Assembly (NCBI GenBank): GCA_902612965.1
Contig: CACMFN010000001.1
Span: forward strand, 1 to 64,000
Direction of reading: 5' to 3'
DNA from: an uncultured SAR116 cluster alpha proteobacterium
GTDB lineage: Bacteria > Pseudomonadota > Alphaproteobacteria > Puniceispirillales > GCA-002684695
Length of the DNA: 64,000 nucleotides
Part shown: positions 1 to 53,466 of the stretch, in pieces
Layout of the letters: each line of letters begins with the position of its first letter
Numbering within the stretch: the stretch's first letter is position 1
The notes under the pieces: generated by a model
Databases searched by the model: none
Told to the model about the DNA's origin: nothing
Seen by the model: the letters and a program-made list of their open reading frames with translations, nothing else
Made by a program: the position numbers and the translations under genes

Positions 1-3000
1 TAACTATTTACAGTGGTGAATTAACTGTCAACAATAATATTACCTCAAATAGTAGTGGATCAGATGTTTTATTTATTTCTTCAAATATTACATTAAATGC
101 TGCAATAACTTCTACCGGCACAAGTACTGTTACAATTAATTCATCAGGGAATGTTATTGATGGTATTAATGGTTCTTTTGTAGGTAAAATCATATCAACT
201 AATCTTTTGCTTACTGGTAACGGAAACGTTAATTTAGATAGTACAACAAATAATGTTTCTATTATATCGGCCGGATCTAATGCTTCTAGATTAGGCAGTC
301 TAAATTTTACTAATAGTAATGCCTTGGTTGTAGGATCAGTTGGAAGCAATAGTGGAATTTATACAACTGGTACTATCGCTATATCAACATTAACTGGTGA
401 TTTATCTGTAAGTCAGAACATAAATACTCAGAACACAAGTACGACAGCCCTTATACTTAATGCAAGTCAATCTACAGCAGCAGGTGTTTCATCTGGTGGT
501 GATTTAAAATTTTCGGGAGGTGCTTCAATTACAATAGGTGCCAACGCAAGAGCAAAACTTTACTCAGGGAGTATTTCAGGTAGCACGGGTTTAACTACTA
601 TAACTGGATCTGGTTCAAATCGTTTTAGATATAATAGTGATGAAAGTAACTCAAATTATTCACTATCATTAGGTACAGGCATACATGCAATCTATCGTGA
701 AAGACCTTCTTTAACTATTGTGGCTGATGATAAAACTGTAACTTATGGAACAGCACCTACCCTTACAACTACGGTTAATGGCTTACAAAATGGAGATACG
801 GCTTCACAAACTTTGAGTACAGTTGCATCCGTTGCTGTTGGCGGAAGTAAATCTTCATCTAATAATTATACTGCTGGAACACACGCGTTAACAGCTTCCT
901 CAGCAGTAGAACAGTTGGGATATTTAATTAGCAGTTACACAGAAGGAACACTTACAGTTAATAGAAAGAATGTTACAGCTTCATATACTGCATCCAACAA
1001 AACATATGACAGCACTGATTTTGCAACAGTGACTGGAAGTCTTTCAGGAGTTGTATCTGGGGATAGTGTCTCAGTTTCAAAAACAAGTTCGGTATTTTCA
1101 GATGCAAATGTGGCGGATGGTAAAACAGTTACTATAAGTGGTATAAGTATAGGTGCTACTGATGCAAGCAATTATACTCTTCAAAACACTACTACAACCA
1201 CAACAGCTAATATTTCTGAAGCAGTATTGCAAATTATAGCCAACGCTGATGCAAAGTTTGTAACTGAAAATGATACTGCTGGTTATAAGGGTGTAAGCTA
1301 TTTTGGTTTTGTAGGTAGTGAAAGTAGCTCTAATTTGAGTGGATCATTATCAATTGCTAGAAGCGATGCATCTAATAATGTTGCAGGAAGTTATTCTTTG
1401 ACGCCTTCAGGCTTAAGTTCATCAAACTACGACATTTCTTTCGTAAATGGGCTCTATACAATAGTACCTGCAAATGAGCTTTTAGTGGAGTTGTCAGAAA
1501 CTAGTGATGTTGTATACAGCAACACACCTACCTATTCAATTGAAACTGCTGAGTATTTGTTTTGTTCACGTTCTGACTGTAATGTTGGATTGGGATCGAC
1601 AAATACAATTTTTGATATGAAGTCTAAATCTACTTTGTCAGGACGATCATTTAGTTTAAATGATGGAGCAAATGGATCTGCGTCATTTACTATAGCACCA
1701 TCAGGGGGCTTCCCACAAAGCTCATCTGGTAACATTAGTGCAGGAAGTTATGCATTAACAGCAACTGATGTTACTGAGACACATGTGAATTTTAGTAACC
1801 AAATTACTTTAACTGGACAGGTAACATATACAAAAAAACCAGTAACAGTCTCTATTTCTGCTAGTAACAAAGTATATGACAGATTAGTCTCTGCTACAGC
1901 TTCTGCTAGCATGTCAGGTGTTATCGCCGGAGACACTGTTAATTTGATTACTCCAGCCGCTACTTTTTCAGATAAAGATGCTGCTAACGATAAAACAGTG
2001 ACTATGTCAGGTATAAGCATAAGTGGGACTGATGTTGCAAATTATGACTTGCAAAACTTTACTGCAACTACTACTGCAAATATCACTCCCAAACCTATAA
2101 CAGCTTCTTACACAGCTTCTAATAAAGTTTATGACAGGACAGTTCAAGCAACAGTTGATGGCAGCTTATCAGGTGTAATTTTTGGTGATACGGTTACAGT
2201 TACAAAAACGAGTTCAGTTTTCTCAGATATTAATGTAGGAAGTGGAAAAACAGTTACTGTTTCTGGCATAAGTATTGGTGGGCCAGGTTCGCCTAACTAT
2301 AGTCTGCAGAACAATTCAACAACAACTACTGCAAACATTTCACAAAAGTCTTTAACTGCTTCATATACAGCAGAAAATAAAGTTTATGATCGAAATAATA
2401 CAGCTACAGTAGCAGGTGAATTATCGGGTGTGATATCAGGTGATCAAGTTAGTTTATCTAATGCTTCTGCTGTTTTCTCAAATAAAAATGTTGCAAATAA
2501 TAAAACAGTTACTGTTTCAGGCTTAAGTATATCAGGAACATCATCATCAAATTATGCTTTACAAAACTCAATAGCTACAACCACTGCAAATATTTCTCCT
2601 AAATCTTTGATAGCTTCTTTTGAGGCCTCAAATAAAGTTTATGATAGAAATACATCAGCTGTAGTTACTCATTCTATTAATGGAGTAATTGATGGCGATA
2701 TTATTTCATTAGAAAATATTACTGCTAATTTCTCTGATAAGAGAGCAGGTAACAATAAAACTGTTACTGTTACTTCCAATATTTCTGGTGCTGATGTATC
2801 AAACTACCAGCTAAGCAATTCTACTGAATTTGTTTCTGCCAGTATTTCAAAAAAGCCTTTATATGCTTCATTTGAAGCTTCAAACAAAGTTTTTGATGGA
2901 ACAACAAAAGTAGAAGTGGATGGAAGTTCATCAGATGTTATTAACGGTGATAATGTAGAATTTGAATATGAAAATGCAAAATTTATTGACGATACTATAG

Positions 3001-3383
3001 GAACACAAAAGCAAGTTTTAGTCTCTGGCATCTCTCTTTCTGGAATAGATGCAGAAAATTATGATTTGCAAAATTTAACATATATAACTTCTGCAACAGT
3101 CGCAGCACCTGCTGACATTGCAGGAAGTGTTTACTATATAGATTGGTCTACACCAGAATTTTTTACTGGTGATGTTACTTGTCAGGGATGTATCGATTGG
3201 AAAAGTCTTTATAAAATGCTGAAAATTGAGGATAATATAAAATCTATAATTAATTATGTGAATTTATCAACAGCAGATGAAGAAAATAAGTCTGCTTCGA
3301 AAGAAAAACAAAAAAATGAATTGGAAAAGGACTTAAATCAATCAGTTTCAATATTTAGAAGGATAATGAAAATCTTGCTTTAA
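1..3383 (+). CDS. Large surface/secreted exoprotein with MBG and YDG repeats (5' end outside window)
   Basis: The reading frame is open from the first bases (codons in phase with position 3), so the true start lies upstream and only about 1126 C-terminal residues are visible. The first ~230 residues are Ser/Thr/Asn/Gly-rich short strands, like the beta-helix of filamentous-haemagglutinin-type exoproteins. Then come an MBG-type unit (about 705-960), a first YDG-type unit (about 966-1218), a second MBG-type unit (about 1228-1470), an MBG-like spacer containing two Cys, and five consecutive YDG-type units (about 1834-3110). Each YDG unit follows the pattern NKVYDR..., GVI.GD.V, VFSD.NV, KTVTVSGISI, NY.LQN. 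The C-terminus holds a CxxC pair, is charged, and shows no autotransporter barrel. Such proteins are usually exported by a two-partner system, but no TpsB is visible here. Role in adhesion is inferred. Confidence 0.75.
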   Translation, partial: TIYSGELTVNNNITSNSSGSDVLFISSNITLNAAITSTGTSTVTINSSGNVIDGINGSFVGKIISTNLLLTGNGNVNLDSTTNNVSIISAGSNASRLGSLNFTNSNALVVGSVGSNSGIYTTGTIAISTLTGDLSVSQNINTQNTSTTALILNASQSTAAGVSSGGDLKFSGGASITIGANARAKLYSGSISGSTGLTTITGSGSNRFRYNSDESNSNYSLSLGTGIHAIYRERPSLTIVADDKTVTYGTAPTLTTTVNGLQNGDTASQTLSTVASVAVGGSKSSSNNYTAGTHALTASSAVEQLGYLISSYTEGTLTVNRKNVTASYTASNKTYDSTDFATVTGSLSGVVSGDSVSVSKTSSVFSDANVADGKTVTISGISIGATDASNYTLQNTTTTTTANISEAVLQIIANADAKFVTENDTAGYKGVSYFGFVGSESSSNLSGSLSIARSDASNNVAGSYSLTPSGLSSSNYDISFVNGLYTIVPANELLVELSETSDVVYSNTPTYSIETAEYLFCSRSDCNVGLGSTNTIFDMKSKSTLSGRSFSLNDGANGSASFTIAPSGGFPQSSSGNISAGSYALTATDVTETHVNFSNQITLTGQVTYTKKPVTVSISASNKVYDRLVSATASASMSGVIAGDTVNLITPAATFSDKDAANDKTVTMSGISISGTDVANYDLQNFTATTTANITPKPITASYTASNKVYDRTVQATVDGSLSGVIFGDTVTVTKTSSVFSDINVGSGKTVTVSGISIGGPGSPNYSLQNNSTTTTANISQKSLTASYTAENKVYDRNNTATVAGELSGVISGDQVSLSNASAVFSNKNVANNKTVTVSGLSISGTSSSNYALQNSIATTTANISPKSLIASFEASNKVYDRNTSAVVTHSINGVIDGDIISLENITANFSDKRAGNNKTVTVTSNISGADVSNYQLSNSTEFVSASISKKPLYASFEASNKVFDGTTKVEVDGSSSDVINGDNVEFEYENAKFIDDTIGTQKQVLVSGISLSGIDAENYDLQNLTYITSATVAAPADIAGSVYYIDWSTPEFFTGDVTCQGCIDWKSLYKMLKIEDNIKSIINYVNLSTADEENKSASKEKQKNELEKDLNQSVSIFRRIMKILL
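963..3110 (+). repeat. Six YDG-type protein repeats, five in tandem
   Basis: Units begin near 963, 1834, 2089, 2343, 2597 and 2849. The tandem ones have a period of about 255 bp (85 residues). Each starts with a variant of ASYTASNKVYD and ends with a variant of TTTTANIS followed by P/Q/K-K. Unit 6 is the most diverged: VFDGTT replaces VYDR and its end lacks the T-rich tail. The units differ at many synonymous positions, so this is an old duplication rather than a recent expansion. Confidence 0.8.
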
Positions 3384-21534: not shown

Positions 21535-24069
21535 TTATATTAGGAAATTTATAATAAATAGTATTATCAAAGCAGAGAATATTCCTGCGAGAACATCATC
21601 AAATATTATTCCAAATGCACCGCCTTTGTTTTCTAAAAATTTAATTGGACCAAGTTTTGTGATATCAAAAAATCTGAATAATACAAAAGACAACAAATGT
21701 AAGTATATGTTTAAACCAGCAGACGCTGAAGCTATAAGCTGACCTGCTGCTTCATCTATTACAACTTCTTTAGGGTCAGAATTAATATTCTGTCCTATAT
21801 ATTTTTTTGTAAACCAAAGTCCCAAAAAAATTAATAGAATTGATAATAATAGTGTATATTCCCATCCAAGCCTTAAATTGATATAATAACCTAAAATAAA
21901 GAAAAATATTGAACAAAAAGTTCCAGATGCAAATGGAAATTTTCCCAAAGGCCAAACTTGAACAATTTTTGATGTAAAGTCTTTCGGATAGTTCAATAAT
22001 TCTTTTTCTTCAAAAAAATTTATTTTTTTTGTTAATTTTCCGTGCTTCCTGAAAGTTGAGTTGATCGCTATTACAATGAAAATTATTAAGGATATTAATG
22101 CACTCATTACTGCATATCTATTAGCTGGATGATAAAAGATCAACATCATTTGAAGACCTAACCAATATAAAGATAGAAGAATTAGGTTTTTATTGAAATT
22201 TTCATATAACAAACGAATAAAATTCTTAAATCTTTTCAAAACTAATAAAATTGGAATCAAAATTGTTAACATAATTATTGACAACAATAAAATAATACCA
22301 CCAGGGCCAAGAATATATCTAGCAAAATGGTTTAATATATAAATTAATTTTTCATTGTTCCAATCTCCTTTAATTAATGCAAAAAAAGCCTGCGACCAAT
22401 AACTTGGTGGAGCTAGTATATTTTCTTTTATAGTTGCTGCTTTAGTAAAAATGACAAATTCATTTCCAAAAAACAGATTATGTATTAATGGAAAAAATGC
22501 TGGTGCAATACCTAAAGCTGAAAAAATAAAAACTTTATAATTTGGAAATGGCTTAGAAAAGGCTAAAAAACCTGCAATAAAAAGTAAGCTTGCAGGCAGT
22601 AAATTAGGTCTCACAAAAATTGATAAACCAAAGAAAAAAGAGCATAAAAATATATTTTTAAATATATCATTATTGCTTTCAGAATTGGTGATACCAAAAA
22701 TAATACCTAATAATGCAAGAAAATATCCTATACTTTCTGGGTAATGTGAAACAGATTCAGCATATGAGGGTACAATAATTAAAAGGATGATAATTGATAT
22801 CAATGAATGCAATGCAGGTAAAAATTTTCTCAAAATAAAATATAGTAAGCTAGGCATTAAAATTACTGAAAAGTAAGTTAATATTGAGCTTTCCCCAAAA
22901 ATTACCATTTCAAGACTTCTAAAATACCTATATCCAGGCATAAAGTAGTAGATTTTTTCAACACCTAAAAATGCTTCGTATAAGTTTCCAAGTTTAATAG
23001 ACTCTGTTATCCATTTACCAAAGCCCCAATGTAATAGTGGATCACCAACGCCATCTAAAAATAAATAGTAATGTGATTGAAATAGTTTTTCACCACCCCA
23101 AACAAAATTAGATAAAAATGATATTCCATATATGGGGAGAGCAAAATTGTATCTCGGTTTTATCCAAGAAAAAACAAATATCAGACAAGACAAAATTTTA
23201 ACTAATAAAACAACAATTTTAAATGTATTTAGTTTATTAGAAAGCTCGTACGAAACACTGAAACTATCATTTTGATCAAATTGCAGTCCTATCAATTCTA
23301 TTTGTAGGATGTTTTTTTTTAAAGTAATACAATTAAATTTAGAATTAAATTCAAAGATAAAATTTTTATTATTAATTTTTTTTGCGATATTGCCCTTAGT
23401 ACATAATTTACCTTTTGCATTTTCTGGAAAACGCCACTTAACAAAATAAGGTGCATCTTTTCTATTTGGATTTTTGTTTGAAAACCTATCAGAATACCAA
23501 TTTGAAATCGTATCACCATTTGGTGCAAGTGTATTTAAAAACCCTGTTCTACTTTTTAACAATTCATTTGAAGAAATTTCATATACAATTCTTGACATAT
23601 CAGTTTTTTGCCAAAAACCATCAGCCGAAAATGAAAAGGGTCTTTTAATATCCCCAAAAAATCTCCAACAACCATATATTTCCTTGTCACATTGTAATTC
23701 TTCAGGATATTTTAAATTGAACCTCTCTTTAGCAAGCTCATAAATGTTTTCAGGCAATGCTTTTTTTAACTCTTTGCTGTCATCTTCAACAAAAATTAAA
23801 TAATTATGACCCTCATGTATTTTTGGAAATGAAAAGAAAAAAGAAAATGAAAATATTATTATAGAAATTATACTTAAGACAAACGAATATTTATTGAATC
23901 TTCTAATTTCTCCGGTAAAAACAAATATTAAAAGAAAAAAAAATAAAAATATCAATATTGGATTTAAAATTGGTAATCTTAAAAACAATAAAACTATGGA
24001 TAATATTGATAACTTTATTAAAAAATTTAAAAAAAACATCATTAATTCTTTAATTATTTTTTTTTGCAA
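21535..24069 (-). CDS. Fusion: GT-C-like multi-membrane protein + C-terminal PgpA phosphatase domain
   Basis: This is one 844-residue ORF. The N-terminal ~80 residues have several TM helices. A soluble, presumably periplasmic, segment with Cys follows (~85-275), then about ten TM helices (~280-680). LFLDGVGDPLLHWGFGKW (~338-355) is a plausible acidic-loop motif for a polyprenyl-linked GT-C glycosyltransferase. Residues ~698-844 are a full-length PgpA domain: PFASGTF, DPKEVVIDEAAGQLIA, FVLFRFFD and GIIFDDVLAG. PgpA normally dephosphorylates phosphatidylglycerophosphate as a stand-alone ~150-170-residue enzyme. No internal start codon precedes the PgpA part, so it depends on fusion translation. 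The gene overlaps the methyltransferase stop by 20 bp. Confidence 0.85.
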   Translation of the reverse strand: MQKKIIKELMMFFLNFLIKLSILSIVLLFLRLPILNPILIFLFFFLLIFVFTGEIRRFNKYSFVLSIISIIIFSFSFFFSFPKIHEGHNYLIFVEDDSKELKKALPENIYELAKERFNLKYPEELQCDKEIYGCWRFFGDIKRPFSFSADGFWQKTDMSRIVYEISSNELLKSRTGFLNTLAPNGDTISNWYSDRFSNKNPNRKDAPYFVKWRFPENAKGKLCTKGNIAKKINNKNFIFEFNSKFNCITLKKNILQIELIGLQFDQNDSFSVSYELSNKLNTFKIVVLLVKILSCLIFVFSWIKPRYNFALPIYGISFLSNFVWGGEKLFQSHYYLFLDGVGDPLLHWGFGKWITESIKLGNLYEAFLGVEKIYYFMPGYRYFRSLEMVIFGESSILTYFSVILMPSLLYFILRKFLPALHSLISIIILLIIVPSYAESVSHYPESIGYFLALLGIIFGITNSESNNDIFKNIFLCSFFFGLSIFVRPNLLPASLLFIAGFLAFSKPFPNYKVFIFSALGIAPAFFPLIHNLFFGNEFVIFTKAATIKENILAPPSYWSQAFFALIKGDWNNEKLIYILNHFARYILGPGGIILLLSIIMLTILIPILLVLKRFKNFIRLLYENFNKNLILLSLYWLGLQMMLIFYHPANRYAVMSALISLIIFIVIAINSTFRKHGKLTKKINFFEEKELLNYPKDFTSKIVQVWPLGKFPFASGTFCSIFFFILGYYINLRLGWEYTLLLSILLIFLGLWFTKKYIGQNINSDPKEVVIDEAAGQLIASASAGLNIYLHLLSFVLFRFFDITKLGPIKFLENKGGAFGIIFDDVLAGIFSALIILFIINFLI

Positions 24070-24709
24070 TGACCCATTTATGAGAATACCAAAAAATAAT
24101 TTTTGAATCGACTTCTTGTATTATCAATCCATTTTCTTCAATTATATTTTTTAGTTTTTCAAATGAAAAATATTTAATAAGCTGTTTTGCAAAAATCAGA
24201 TCGTGTAAAATATTCATAAAAGCACAAAAAACTGGTCTTGTATTCATATCTTTTATGATTAATGTTCCACCGGGATTAATTTTATCTATAGTTTTTTTTA
24301 CGAACAAGTTCTGTTCTTCAGGTTTAATATGATGAAGAACATCTATTACTGTCACAACATCAAATTTATCTTCAGGCCAATCTAAAAAAGTTGAAATTTT
24401 TTTATACTTAACTCTATTAAAAACAGTCTTTACGGCATCTAAATCTGTATCTATTACATCAACACCATATAAAATTTTTGGTTTTCTTAACATTGCTATT
24501 AAATATAAAAAAACACCGTCTCCACAACCGATATCAAAAACACTTTTATTGTTAGGAATGCTAAAAATAAATTTTTCGAATGGACATATCCATGGTCTTG
24601 CCCACGAAAAAAATTTCTTAAATCCAAAAGAATATCTTAACTCTTTTATTATTTTATTCTTGTTAAATACTTTATTCAATCTATCATCCAAGTGAAACTG
24701 TTTGATCAA
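24050..24709 (-). CDS. Class I SAM-dependent methyltransferase
   Basis: In this 219-residue protein motif I is VFDIGCGDG (~62-70), beta-2 ends in GVDVID, and VVTVIDVLHH (~115-124) is motif IV. INPGGTLIIKDM follows, as in small-molecule and lipid methyltransferases. A hydrophobic or aromatic C-terminal third (IIFWYSHKWV) suggests a lipid-like or membrane-near substrate. The stop overlaps the start of the GT-C-PgpA fusion by 20 bp. The start is only 24 bp from the start of the divergent UbiA-family gene. Confidence 0.8.
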   Translation of the reverse strand: MIKQFHLDDRLNKVFNKNKIIKELRYSFGFKKFFSWARPWICPFEKFIFSIPNNKSVFDIGCGDGVFLYLIAMLRKPKILYGVDVIDTDLDAVKTVFNRVKYKKISTFLDWPEDKFDVVTVIDVLHHIKPEEQNLFVKKTIDKINPGGTLIIKDMNTRPVFCAFMNILHDLIFAKQLIKYFSFEKLKNIIEENGLIIQEVDSKIIFWYSHKWVIAKKNN

Positions 24710-24733
24710 ATACAGATTTTATAATAACTAATT

Positions 24734-25630
24734 ATGATTTTTACAAATTTAATTGAATTAATAAGGCCTACTCATTGGATAAAAAATTTTTTTGTTTTTA
24801 TTGTTCCAATATTACATTTCAAAGTTTTAAATTTTAATGAATTTAATAATTTACTCATAACTTTCTTATGCTTTTGCTTATTTTCATCCGCTGGATATGT
24901 ATTAAATGACTGGTTTGACAGGGAAAAAGATACATTCCATCCCAAAAAAAAATTAAGGCCTTTTGCATGTGGTAAAATGAACTTTTATCACATGACTATT
25001 ATTTTTGGATTGCTGTTGGGATTTGGTTTTGTTGCCCTAAATTTCATAAATGGTCTAGCAAAGATAGTTTTATTAATTTATTTATTTACAACAATTTTAT
25101 ACACATCATTTTTAAAATCAATTGCATTAGTAGACATATCTATTATTTCTTTTGGTTTTGTATTGCGCTTATATTCAGGTTCAATATCAACAAACTTAGA
25201 TGTAAGTGTAGAATTATTAATTATTACTTTTCTTCTATGTTTATTTTTACCATTGAGTAAAAGAAGGGATGATTTGATTATTGGATTAAATCAGAGACAT
25301 AGGGAATCATTAAATTATTATAGTAAAGATCTCATTGACAATTTATTAATATTTTGTCTTGCTTCATTTTTTTCAGTATTAATTTTTTGGTCAGTAAGCA
25401 AAGATACAATAGAAAGGCTTGGTACAAATGGTTTGCCTCTTCTATTACCATTTATATTAATTGCCATTTTCAGATACATGCAATTTATATTTGTTTTTAA
25501 AGAAACAGGCGATCCAATTATAATTTTTTTTAAAGACAAGCTTCTTCAAGTTATTTTGTTATTAATTTTGTTAATCTTTATTCTTATAAGGATTTACGAG
25601 TTTGATTTAAATACGATATCAATTTTTTAA
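24734..25630 (+). CDS. UbiA-family prenyltransferase, decaprenyl-phosphate phosphoribosyltransferase-like
   Basis: This 298-residue protein has about eight or nine TM helices. LIRPTHWIKN (~9-18) and N58-D-xx-D62-xxx-D66-xx-H69-P-x-K72 are the first Asp-rich region in the form typical of DPPR synthases such as Rv3806c. YTSFLKSIALVDI...GFVLRLYSG and FLPLSKRRDDL (~178) match the later signatures of the same group. The reaction would transfer phosphoribose from PRPP to a polyprenyl phosphate. Aromatic prenyltransferases such as UbiA or COX10 lack the DxxHPxK form. It is divergent from the methyltransferase and fusion genes. Confidence 0.8.
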   Translation: MIFTNLIELIRPTHWIKNFFVFIVPILHFKVLNFNEFNNLLITFLCFCLFSSAGYVLNDWFDREKDTFHPKKKLRPFACGKMNFYHMTIIFGLLLGFGFVALNFINGLAKIVLLIYLFTTILYTSFLKSIALVDISIISFGFVLRLYSGSISTNLDVSVELLIITFLLCLFLPLSKRRDDLIIGLNQRHRESLNYYSKDLIDNLLIFCLASFFSVLIFWSVSKDTIERLGTNGLPLLLPFILIAIFRYMQFIFVFKETGDPIIIFFKDKLLQVILLLILLIFILIRIYEFDLNTISIF

Positions 25631-27457: not shown

Positions 27458-27928
27458 ATGGGTGCTTATGAAAAGAATTTTCCAGTTACCTGGGAGGAAC
27501 TTCACAGAAATGCAAAAGCTCTTGCTTGGCGATTAAATTCTTTAGGCCCTTTCAAAGGGATAATTTCAGTCACAAGAGGAGGACTAGTGCCCGCTGCAGT
27601 AGTTGCGAGAGAACTAGAAATTAGACTTATTGATACAATATGCATTTCTTCGTATGAGGGTGATAAACAAGAAGAATTAAATGTCATTAAAGATGTTCAA
27701 CTAGAAGAAGATGGCAGCGGTTGGCTAATTATAGATGACTTGGTTGATACAGGTGATACTGCTAGAGCAGTAAGAAAAATGCTTCCAAAAGCACACTTTG
27801 CTACTGTATACGCCAAACCTGCAGGAAGACCATTGGTAGATACATACATTACTGAAGTCAGCCAAGACACATGGATATTTTTTCCTTGGGATATGGAACC
27901 ACAGCCAGTAAAGCCTATTGTAAGTTAG
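27458..27928 (+). CDS. gpt: Xanthine(-guanine) phosphoribosyltransferase
   Basis: This 156-residue protein begins [32 protein letters not shown] and the PRPP loop [13 protein letters not shown] are typical of type I phosphoribosyltransferases of the Gpt group. FFPWDMEP is the Gpt hood and C-terminal signature. The enzyme salvages xanthine and guanine with PRPP to XMP and GMP. The stop TAG overlaps the stop of the convergent TVP38 gene by 4 bp. Confidence 0.93.
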
Positions 27929-28623
27929 CCTCTAATTTTCTTTTTAAGAAATTTATCAAAAATTATAGGACTTAAGCTTAAAATTGATAAAAGCAAAATA
28001 ATGAGAAAGTATTTGCTTGATGTAATATTGAATTCAGGTATTTGAGAATTTTGAAATAATTCTGAAAAGGTTATACCTGTAAATATATAAATTGTTGTTC
28101 CTGGTATAATTCCAATAAATGTCGCAAAAACATATGAGATAATTCTCATATTTACTATGCCTGCTAATATATTGACTATAAAAAATGGAGCAAAAGGTAT
28201 TAGCCTTAGAAATAAAAGATAATAGAAATGATTTTTACTGAAACCTTTTTCGAGACCTTTATATTTTTTTATAATTTTTTTTGAAAAATAGTTTGCGAGA
28301 ATACTCTTTGAAAGAATAAATATAATCGTAGCTCCAATTGTAGCGCTAATAACTACGACTGGTAATGCTAGCCAATTGAAAATTGCCCCACCAATAAGCG
28401 TCAAATAGCTTGCGACTGGAACAGAAAAAGCAACACATACAATATAAAGAAATGAATAAAAAATAATTGCTAATAAAAAATTACTATTAATTTGAGAATT
28501 TATATACTCAAATGCACCAAGTATAAATGCTGTCTCTTTGAAATAGATTTTCATTAATATTATCCAAAAAAACAAAATTAAGATAAAAATGACTGGCAAC
28601 AAATTATTTATTTTTAATTTCAT
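27925..28623 (-). CDS. TVP38/TMEM64 (DedA-like) membrane protein
   Basis: This 232-residue inner-membrane protein has about six hydrophobic stretches. [15 protein letters not shown] (near 70-84) and [17 protein letters not shown] (near 140-156), with F.....G..PGT..Y following, are the VTT-domain signatures. Relatives are lipid scramblases or of unknown role. It is convergent with gpt (4-bp stop overlap) and divergent from rpmH. Confidence 0.85.
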
Positions 28624-52038: not shown

Positions 52039-52125
52039 GAAAACTATTGATAGGAATTATAATTGTTTTTAGGAAATAGCTTAAGATAATAACTTAATTC
52101 TTTCAATTGAACTTTGTTAAAGAAA

Positions 52126-53466
52126 ATGAACTTATCACAAATATATAACAAAAGCCCTTCTTTTATATCTATTTGGAAAATAACATGGCCAATAATTATT
52201 GCAAATTTAACATTGCCAGTTGTTACAGCAACGGACACAGCTGTCATGGGGCGTGAACAAAGTTCTACTTTTATTGCTGCAATTGCATTAGGTGGTATAG
52301 TTTTCAATATAATTTATTTTTCATTAAACTTTCTTCGAATGAGTACAACTGGTCTGGTATCCCAAGAGGAAGGTAGAAAAAACGAAGAAGAGATAAAAAA
52401 AATTATAAGGTTGACACTAAGTATTGCTATCGCAATTGGTTTTTTAATAATCTGTTCTTCATATCCTTTGATCGAAATTGCAAAAATTTTAATCTCAGGA
52501 TCTGAGCAAGCTGAACATTTAATGTCAGAATATATATTTTATAGATCCTTTGCTTCTCCTGCGACATTAATGAATATGGTATTCTTAGGAGCATTTATTG
52601 GAATTGGATCTGCAAAATTTGCAATGTTTCAATTAGTATCAATAAGTATATTAAATGCAATTCTAAGTATAGTCTTTGTATTACACTTTAGTTTAGGGGT
52701 TTTTGGTGTTGCTTTAGGGACTGTAATAGCTCAATGGGCAGGTTGCTTGTTAAGTATATTTATGCTCATAAGAATTATAAATTATGAACATATAAATTTT
52801 AAAACTTTTTTTAAATTTAATTTTTACAGTGATAAAAAATTTTATTCAATTTTCAACATTTCAAAAGATCTATTTATAAGAACTTTATGTATTGTTTTTG
52901 GTGAATTTATATTAATTAATAATGCTGCAAAATTAAACATGAACTCTTTAGCTGTAATACAAATATATATAGTTTTATTAGGTTTTGTTGCCTATATACT
53001 AGATGCCTTTGCGCATTCAGCGGAAACACTCTTAGGCCAATCAATTGGCAACAAAGATAAAAGTACTTCTTTAGTAGTAATATTTAAAACATTTATTTTT
53101 TCTCTATTGCTAGCAATATTTTTATCAATTTTGATTTTTTTGATTGGGTTCAATATTTTTGAGATATTTACTTCATTAGATGTAATATTAAATGAATGTA
53201 AGAAATTATTTCCTTATTTATTATTATTACCAATTGTTTCCGTTTGGGCATTTATGCTGGATGGATTTTTTGTAGGTGCGGCTAAGAGTAAGCCAATGCG
53301 GAATTCTACATTACTAGCATTCTGTGTCTTTATAATTCTTAATTACTTCATTATGTTGATAAATCCAAATATTCAGTATCTTTGGCTGAGTTATTTAATT
53401 TTTCTTCTATTAAGAGGAGTTTTTTTATCATTCTATTTTAACTCTCTTTTTGTATATGATAATTAA
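52126..53466 (+). CDS. MATE family efflux transporter (DinF-like)
   Basis: This 446-residue protein has twelve TM helices in two halves. WKITWPIIIANLTLPVVTATDTAVMG starts the first bundle within two conserved groups (WPIIIANLTLP, TDTAVMG), and AHSAETLLGQSIGNKD begins the second. It is a Na+- or H+-coupled exporter of cationic compounds. The ATG at 52126 is preferred over TTG 52114, because the family begins shortly before the first helix. It is divergent from the ArnT-like gene. Confidence 0.9.
   Translation: MNLSQIYNKSPSFISIWKITWPIIIANLTLPVVTATDTAVMGREQSSTFIAAIALGGIVFNIIYFSLNFLRMSTTGLVSQEEGRKNEEEIKKIIRLTLSIAIAIGFLIICSSYPLIEIAKILISGSEQAEHLMSEYIFYRSFASPATLMNMVFLGAFIGIGSAKFAMFQLVSISILNAILSIVFVLHFSLGVFGVALGTVIAQWAGCLLSIFMLIRIINYEHINFKTFFKFNFYSDKKFYSIFNISKDLFIRTLCIVFGEFILINNAAKLNMNSLAVIQIYIVLLGFVAYILDAFAHSAETLLGQSIGNKDKSTSLVVIFKTFIFSLLLAIFLSILIFLIGFNIFEIFTSLDVILNECKKLFPYLLLLPIVSVWAFMLDGFFVGAAKSKPMRNSTLLAFCVFIILNYFIMLINPNIQYLWLSYLIFLLLRGVFLSFYFNSLFVYDN

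Follow-up and report, generated by a model that had tools for sequence, protein, structure and literature searches.

A general pathway for pentofuranose lipids has already been published for Gram-negative bacteria by Kelly et al. (PMC11127046), who found ribofuranose when no epimerase is encoded, xylofuranose with a short-chain dehydrogenase/reductase (SDR) epimerase (ORF13), and arabinofuranose with DprE1/DprE2. The least settled step of phosphoribosyl-lipid pathways is that of the phosphatase; the proteins shown or proposed to carry it out include mycobacterial Rv3807c and HAD domains. The present analysis concerns a three-gene cassette of an uncultured SAR116 cluster alphaproteobacterium (GCA_902612965.1), located on the first 64,000 nucleotides of contig CACMFN010000001.1, hereafter called the window. 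It encodes a UbiA-family protein resembling decaprenyl-phosphate phosphoribosyltransferase (DPPRS), a methyltransferase, and a protein in which a GT-C-like membrane domain is fused to a PgpA phosphatase domain. This cassette probably represents a variant of the Kelly et al. (2024) pathway in which PgpA takes the place of the HAD phosphoribose phosphatase. Its features are the following:

24734..25630, forward strand: UbiA-family protein of 298 amino acids, a probable polyprenyl-phosphate phosphoribosyltransferase (DPPRS-like; NCBIfam DPPRS, 193 bits; PDB 8j8j, E 7e-23)
24905..24931, forward strand: NDxxDxxxD motif (N58, D59, D62, D66), in DPPRS the site of the metal and of phosphoribosyl pyrophosphate (PRPP), invariant in the alignment (function assigned after its counterparts in PMC11127046)
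24050..24709, reverse strand: class I methyltransferase (Methyltransf_23, UbiG-like) of 219 amino acids as called, with a TTG start (domain match; relatives adjoin UbiA in other genomes)
21535..24069, reverse strand: fusion of a GT-C-like membrane domain and PgpA, 844 amino acids as called (open reading frame call, Pfam, comparison with a sister genome)
21998..24036, reverse strand: GT-C-like membrane domain of no Pfam family, with an extracytoplasmic loop of ~200 residues (family alignments, hydropathy, a model with a predicted local distance difference test (pLDDT) score of 72, weak GT-C structural matches)
21553..21957, reverse strand: PgpA phosphatase domain, residues 705-839 (PF04608, 112 bits; 117 bits over 21553-21960)
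21673..21777, reverse strand: PgpA catalytic residues D765, D772, E773, and R799, conserved in 6/6 aligned PgpA domains

All three open reading frames of the first-pass annotation were confirmed at their coordinates, those of the methyltransferase and the fusion overlapping by 20 bases as called. Judged from the sister genome, the true start of the fusion probably lies about 10 codons downstream of the called start. The assembly comprises 60 contigs and 2.14 Mb and is 83% complete, and among named relatives the SAR116 isolate AG-899-J15 is the closest, with 95% identity in the fusion protein. Below, G-numbers denote genomes (G000 being that of the window and G002 the sister genome), L-numbers loci, and C-numbers contigs.

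The UbiA protein exceeded the cut-off for UbiA (PF01040) in a Pfam search, and its top NCBIfam models were those of DPPRS (193 bits), with heme O synthase (CyoE) at 42 bits and UbiA proper at 30 bits. Its sole matches in the PDB were the DPPRS structures 8j8j and 8j8k of Mycobacterium tuberculosis (E 7e-23). It carries the motifs NDWFDREKDTFHPKK (N58, D59, D62, and D66) and LSKRRDDL (K176 and R177), the first four residues matching those that Kelly et al. examined in ORF15 (PMC11127046). Profile, PDB, and motif evidence thus agree with the DPPRS-like assignment of the first-pass annotation, and the grouping with ubiquinone or heme O synthases that it had feared did not occur. Two further UbiA-family proteins of G000 scored 190 and 212 bits on PF01040 versus 73 bits for the protein of the cassette, so that the latter need not be invoked to account for quinone or heme synthesis. 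Judged by homology, it very likely functions as a polyprenyl-phosphate phosphoribosyltransferase. A relative of this UbiA is also encoded in one phage record.

The PgpA domain of the fusion scored 112 bits on PF04608, against a cut-off of 28. By motif spacing, D765, D772, E773, and R799 correspond to D86, D93, E94, and R121 of Escherichia coli PgpA, whose alanine mutants lose activity (PMC13148334). The loop just before the domain contains nine lysine or arginine residues versus four acidic ones, which, by the positive-inside rule, places the domain on the cytoplasmic face; for E. coli PgpA, too, the active site is predicted there (PMC11629553, PMC13148334). The E. coli enzyme dephosphorylates small sugar phosphates, although not glucose-6-phosphate (PMC11629553, PMC13148334), which may by analogy serve as a precedent for other substrates. 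It is likely, from sequence and context, that the fused domain acts on a phosphoribosyl lipid.

The distribution of phosphatases over related loci points in the same direction. A DPPRS-type UbiA was found in nine SAR116 genomes, and in all nine a phosphatase was fused to it or adjacent, namely PgpA at five loci (G000, G002, G054, G080, and G013) and HAD at four (G005, G055, G058, and G072). The fusion of the GT-C-like domain and PgpA lies beside UbiA in G000 and G002, and in G054 an epimerase and an ArnE/F-like protein are encoded between the fusion and UbiA. In G080, PgpA is fused to an epimerase in a UbiA cassette that also contains an ArnE/F-like protein, and in G013 a stand-alone PgpA overlaps UbiA and adjoins a methyltransferase. 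G005 and G055 possess HAD-UbiA fusions with GtrA, DprE1, and DprE2, while G058 and G072 combine UbiA, an ArnE/F-like protein, an epimerase, and HAD. Since the PgpA of G054 and G080 and the HAD of G058 and G072 both come after the epimerase, they occupy the same slot. The fused PgpA domain therefore stands where other DPPRS loci have a phosphatase, in line with the first-pass annotation, and the presence of the fusion together with UbiA in two SAR116 relatives dispels the concern that the arrangement might be unique to this contig.

Outside SAR116, the distant alphaproteobacterium G280 displays the gene order HAD-UbiA, GT-C-like protein, methyltransferase; as read from the sequences, these are the three activities of the window, with the phosphatase on UbiA instead of on its GT-C-like partner. 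Relatives of the methyltransferase of the window (METHYLTRANSFERASE) adjoin UbiA or lie close to it in G485 (28% identity) and G280 (30%), as does a weaker one in G013, so that the association of methyltransferase and UbiA recurs across genomes. In G462, a PRPP synthetase gene is located next to UbiA. In a phylum-wide sample, a DPPRS-type UbiA occurred in 57 of 399 genomes, mostly in open reading frames of at least 440 amino acids, a length typical of HAD-UbiA fusions, the HAD domain itself being verified just in the loci that were read individually. PgpA was present at none of 51 DPPRS-type loci outside SAR116, mostly covered over about 8 kb on each side and over shorter distances near contig ends.

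Some other arrangements were encountered in this survey. A DUF212 (divergent PAP2) gene directly follows a DPPRS-type UbiA in two distant proteobacteria (L073:4322-4786 and L124:8488-8979), and its product is another candidate for the phosphatase step. A cassette of UbiA, an ArnE/F-like protein, and an SDR epimerase, without DprE1/DprE2, recurs (L033:7272-9542, L034:6871-9600, L099:5852-8825, L100:5625-8626, and L068:299-2595) and may, by analogy with Citrobacter youngae ORF13, yield a xylofuranose donor. Finally, a DPPRS-type UbiA of G875 (L128:7691-10135) is the sole Pfam domain in an open frame of ~815 codons.

The first ~690 residues of the fusion, forming its membrane domain, matched no Pfam family. 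According to hydropathy, three helices at the N terminus are followed by a loop of ~200 residues and then by a helical body. An AlphaFold2 model of this domain alone, made from ten sequences, reached a pLDDT of 72 and a predicted template modelling score (pTM) of 0.75; a model of the whole 844-amino-acid protein from three sequences was discarded (pLDDT 36). The top full-length structural matches in the PDB included the GT-C enzymes OST-A, PglB, ALG3, and ALG9 (E 0.03 to 0.6, template modelling (TM) score ~0.3), and a GT-C fold is probable on the basis of the model. A search with the model among viral structures gave no useful match, PDB sequences searched with a profile of the family yielded nothing meaningful, and no relatives of the fusion were found in the plasmid collection. 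A profile search with the membrane domain retrieved the family from nine of 385 Alphaproteobacteria, in six of which (G000, G345, G261, G462, G280, and G214) the distance to a DPPRS-type UbiA is about 1 kb at most. Given genome sizes of 1.4 to 5 Mb, such proximity is, by our own estimate rather than by computation, far beyond chance. The co-occurrence of the GT-C-like domain with DPPRS is in line with the first-pass annotation. In G325, the family adjoins an epimerase and an ArnE/F-like protein, UbiA being located on a separate contig. In G368 and G295 (L116:5123-9020 and L117:5363-8930), it occurs near a family-2 glycosyltransferase without a nearby UbiA. The latter context fits a transferase using polyprenyl-P-sugars; the family is thus not confined to pentofuranose loci and may use other such donors too. 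Within the cassette, the GT-C-like domain is likely to be the transferase.

Concerning the sugar, the first-pass annotation noted the lack of DprE1/DprE2 genes in the window and suggested that the sugar might stay ribose. Indeed, a true DprE1 was not found in the 83% complete G000 genome, which gave weak GlcD-type matches only; its SDR matches were too numerous to single out a DprE2, and no epimerase is encoded in the cassette. This makes ribofuranose the likeliest sugar, with an about even chance that ribose is the final one in G000. In the sister genome G002, an island next to the cassette (L035:32-8260, G002:C18) encodes a DprE1-like oxidase (234 bits versus a cut-off of 500), an SDR, a family-2 glycosyltransferase (GT2), and a membrane protein, the DprE1-like gene and the SDR being located 5 to 7 kb from UbiA, the former at about 7 kb. 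The window does not contain this island at the corresponding place, and the sister strain may possibly make another pentofuranose.

In the proposed pathway, the UbiA protein would move ribose-5-phosphate from PRPP onto polyprenyl phosphate at the cytoplasmic face, a step for which the homology is strong. At the same face, the PgpA domain would strip the 5'-phosphate, as suggested by its context and intact catalytic residues; this substrate would resemble phosphatidylglycerophosphate (PGP), on which PgpA usually acts, being a lipid phosphodiester whose head group bears a primary phosphate monoester. The polyprenyl-P-ribofuranose would then be moved outward by a putative flippase, whereupon the GT-C-like domain would hand the pentofuranose to an extracytoplasmic acceptor. 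The weakest step would be the methylation of the sugar or of the acceptor by the methyltransferase. The roles assigned to UbiA, PgpA, the GT-C-like domain, and the methyltransferase are predicted ones, as are the acceptor, the flippase, and the methylation target. There is a slim chance that the fusion constitutes one coupled machine, in which the lipid dephosphorylated at the cytoplasmic face would be passed to the protein's own outward-facing transfer site; phosphate removal would then gate export, and no separate flippase would be needed in the cassette. Elsewhere in the window, two proteins not linked to the cassette might be considered for the flippase role, namely a VTT/DedA-domain protein (27925-28623, 2.3 kb from UbiA) and a MATE transporter (52114-53466, at a distance of 26 kb).

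The usual site of pgpA is between ispDF and cinA, as seen in the SAR116 genomes that were inspected. In a phylogenetic tree, the cassette PgpAs of G000, G002, G054, and G080 formed a clade (support 100/99) with one PgpA from a polysaccharide locus of G000, separate from the SAR116 housekeeping copies; that of G013 branched elsewhere, on a long branch. This suggests that PgpA was recruited to such cassettes at least twice, long branches being placed poorly. The G013 genome, which is 100% complete, carries a canonical pgpA as well as the cassette copy, and the tail of a canonical pgpA is found at a contig end in G080; G005 and G055 possess a single PgpA each, outside the HAD-UbiA locus. Furthermore, the PgpA from the polysaccharide locus is a second, stand-alone one in G000 (L038:4248-4739; G000:C2, about 99250-99740). 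As for the objection, foreseen in the first-pass annotation, that the fused PgpA might be the only PGP phosphatase, the domain is not the sole PgpA of its genome, while a function on PGP has to be weighed separately. In the genus of the window (G000-G004, 61-88% complete), neither cinA nor a canonical ispDF-pgpA-cinA copy was found in any of the five genomes, and three of them showed no PgpA whatsoever; as far as genomes of this completeness tell, the genus probably uses another PGP phosphatase.

Several observations weigh against the pathway proposed here. The 193 bits of the UbiA protein fall short of the curated DPPRS equivalog cut-off of 234, which is a naming threshold and no biochemical criterion; in the HAD-UbiA fusion L036, the UbiA portion likewise stays under the cut-offs of the DPPRS models (157 versus 207 bits). 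The structural search with the GT-C-like model yielded no PDB match at E <=0.001, a flippase gene is absent from the three-gene cassette, and the same-clade PgpA in the polysaccharide locus of G000 (with an O-antigen ligase-like protein, GT4, and UDP-glucose dehydrogenase) is not accompanied by UbiA. In G054, the canonical pgpA between ispDF and cinA (L051, G054:C36) is a decayed remnant and the fusion is the sole intact PgpA found, so the domain might serve PGP too.

This decay in G054, the retention of every catalytic residue, and a genus without the canonical ispDF-pgpA-cinA copy would suit a fused PgpA that is an ordinary PGP phosphatase and whose association with the genes for UbiA and the GT-C-like domain is incidental or a matter of membrane targeting only. 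Such a role is rather unlikely in view of the second PgpA of G000, the canonical copy kept beside the cassette copy in the complete G013 genome and visible by its tail in G080, the three congeners without any PgpA, and the HAD phosphatases that fill the same place in sister loci. That the phosphoribosyl lipid is indeed a substrate and PgpA handles PGP as well is improbable: E. coli PgpA does take both PGP and small sugar phosphates (PMC11629553, PMC13148334) and G054 has lost its canonical copy, but a second PgpA persists alongside the cassette copy in the complete G013 genome and probably also in G080. A role of the UbiA protein as an aromatic prenyltransferase, acting in quinone synthesis together with the UbiG-like methyltransferase, is highly improbable. 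Quinone pathways do contain both kinds of proteins, and UbiG was the top NCBIfam match of the methyltransferase, under cut-off; however, profile, PDB, and motif evidence favours DPPRS, the two other UbiA-family proteins of the genome fit PF01040 far better, and relatives of this UbiA adjoin HAD, GtrA, DprE1/DprE2, or ArnE/F-like plus epimerase genes. The preferred interpretation is that of a pentofuranose-lipid cassette with PgpA as its probable phosphatase.

If true, unrelated PGP-phosphatase families of E. coli (PgpA itself and, represented by PgpC, HAD) would each have been recruited for an analogous lipid, adding to the PAP2-related proteins at this step, and a simple rule for recognising such pathways would be at hand. 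In addition, the analysis brings out a family not covered by Pfam whose members are probably polyprenyl-P-sugar transferases, and it predicts that marine SAR116 bacteria bear pentofuranose sugars on their surface. Apart from the cassette, the window encodes a 1058-amino-acid protein (207-3383) that contains six YDG repeats as well as MBG domains and is probably a surface protein.

The Gram-negative lipid-linked pentofuranose system postulated by the first-pass annotation is thus partly supported, but as the pathway type has been described before (PMC11127046), its novelty is confined to the phosphatase family and the fusion. PgpA is not mentioned in the main text of PMC11127046, and among the matches listed by a full-text literature search none joins PgpA with these sugars. 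The proposed rhizobial phosphatase NoeN (PMC5080398) was considered as a possible PgpA and rejected; in that operon, the annotation shows a GtrA-family gene after UbiA and no PgpA in the vicinity. As in the three-component system of C. youngae O1/O2, a predicted PRPP-dependent transferase, a phosphatase, and a probable GT-C-type transferase are encoded together, and an optional epimerase determines the sugar (PMC11127046). The systems differ in that PgpA is carried by the transferase here, whereas a HAD domain is carried by UbiA in C. youngae; no HAD domain occurs in the UbiA protein of the window or its neighbours. Moreover, the MATE flippase is not part of the cassette of the window, which has a methyltransferase in addition, and the GT-C-like domain, with no Pfam match and weak GT-C structural ones, may or may not be related to GT136 (ORF12). 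With the mycobacterial pathway (Rv3806c, Rv3807c, DprE1/DprE2, and AftB), the cassette shares a UbiA protein homologous to DPPRS (8j8j) and the predicted handling of a lipid-linked pentose by a phosphatase of a separate family and a probable GT-C enzyme. In contrast with mycobacteria, the phosphatase belongs to a family other than that of Rv3807c, no clear DprE1/DprE2 pair was found in the 83% complete G000 assembly, and the GT-C-like domain is without a sequence match to any PDB chain. Similarly, the HAD-UbiA (PRK08238) arabinose loci of G005 and G055, from the same order, contain a DPPRS-type UbiA with its own phosphatase; there, HAD is fused to UbiA, and GtrA, DprE1, and DprE2 are present. 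Lastly, the phosphatase domain belongs to the same family as phosphatidylglycerophosphatase A (PF04608) and has the same catalytic residues, but unlike an ordinary PgpA it is fused to a membrane transferase-like domain and resides in a DPPRS cassette instead of the ispDF-pgpA-cinA locus.

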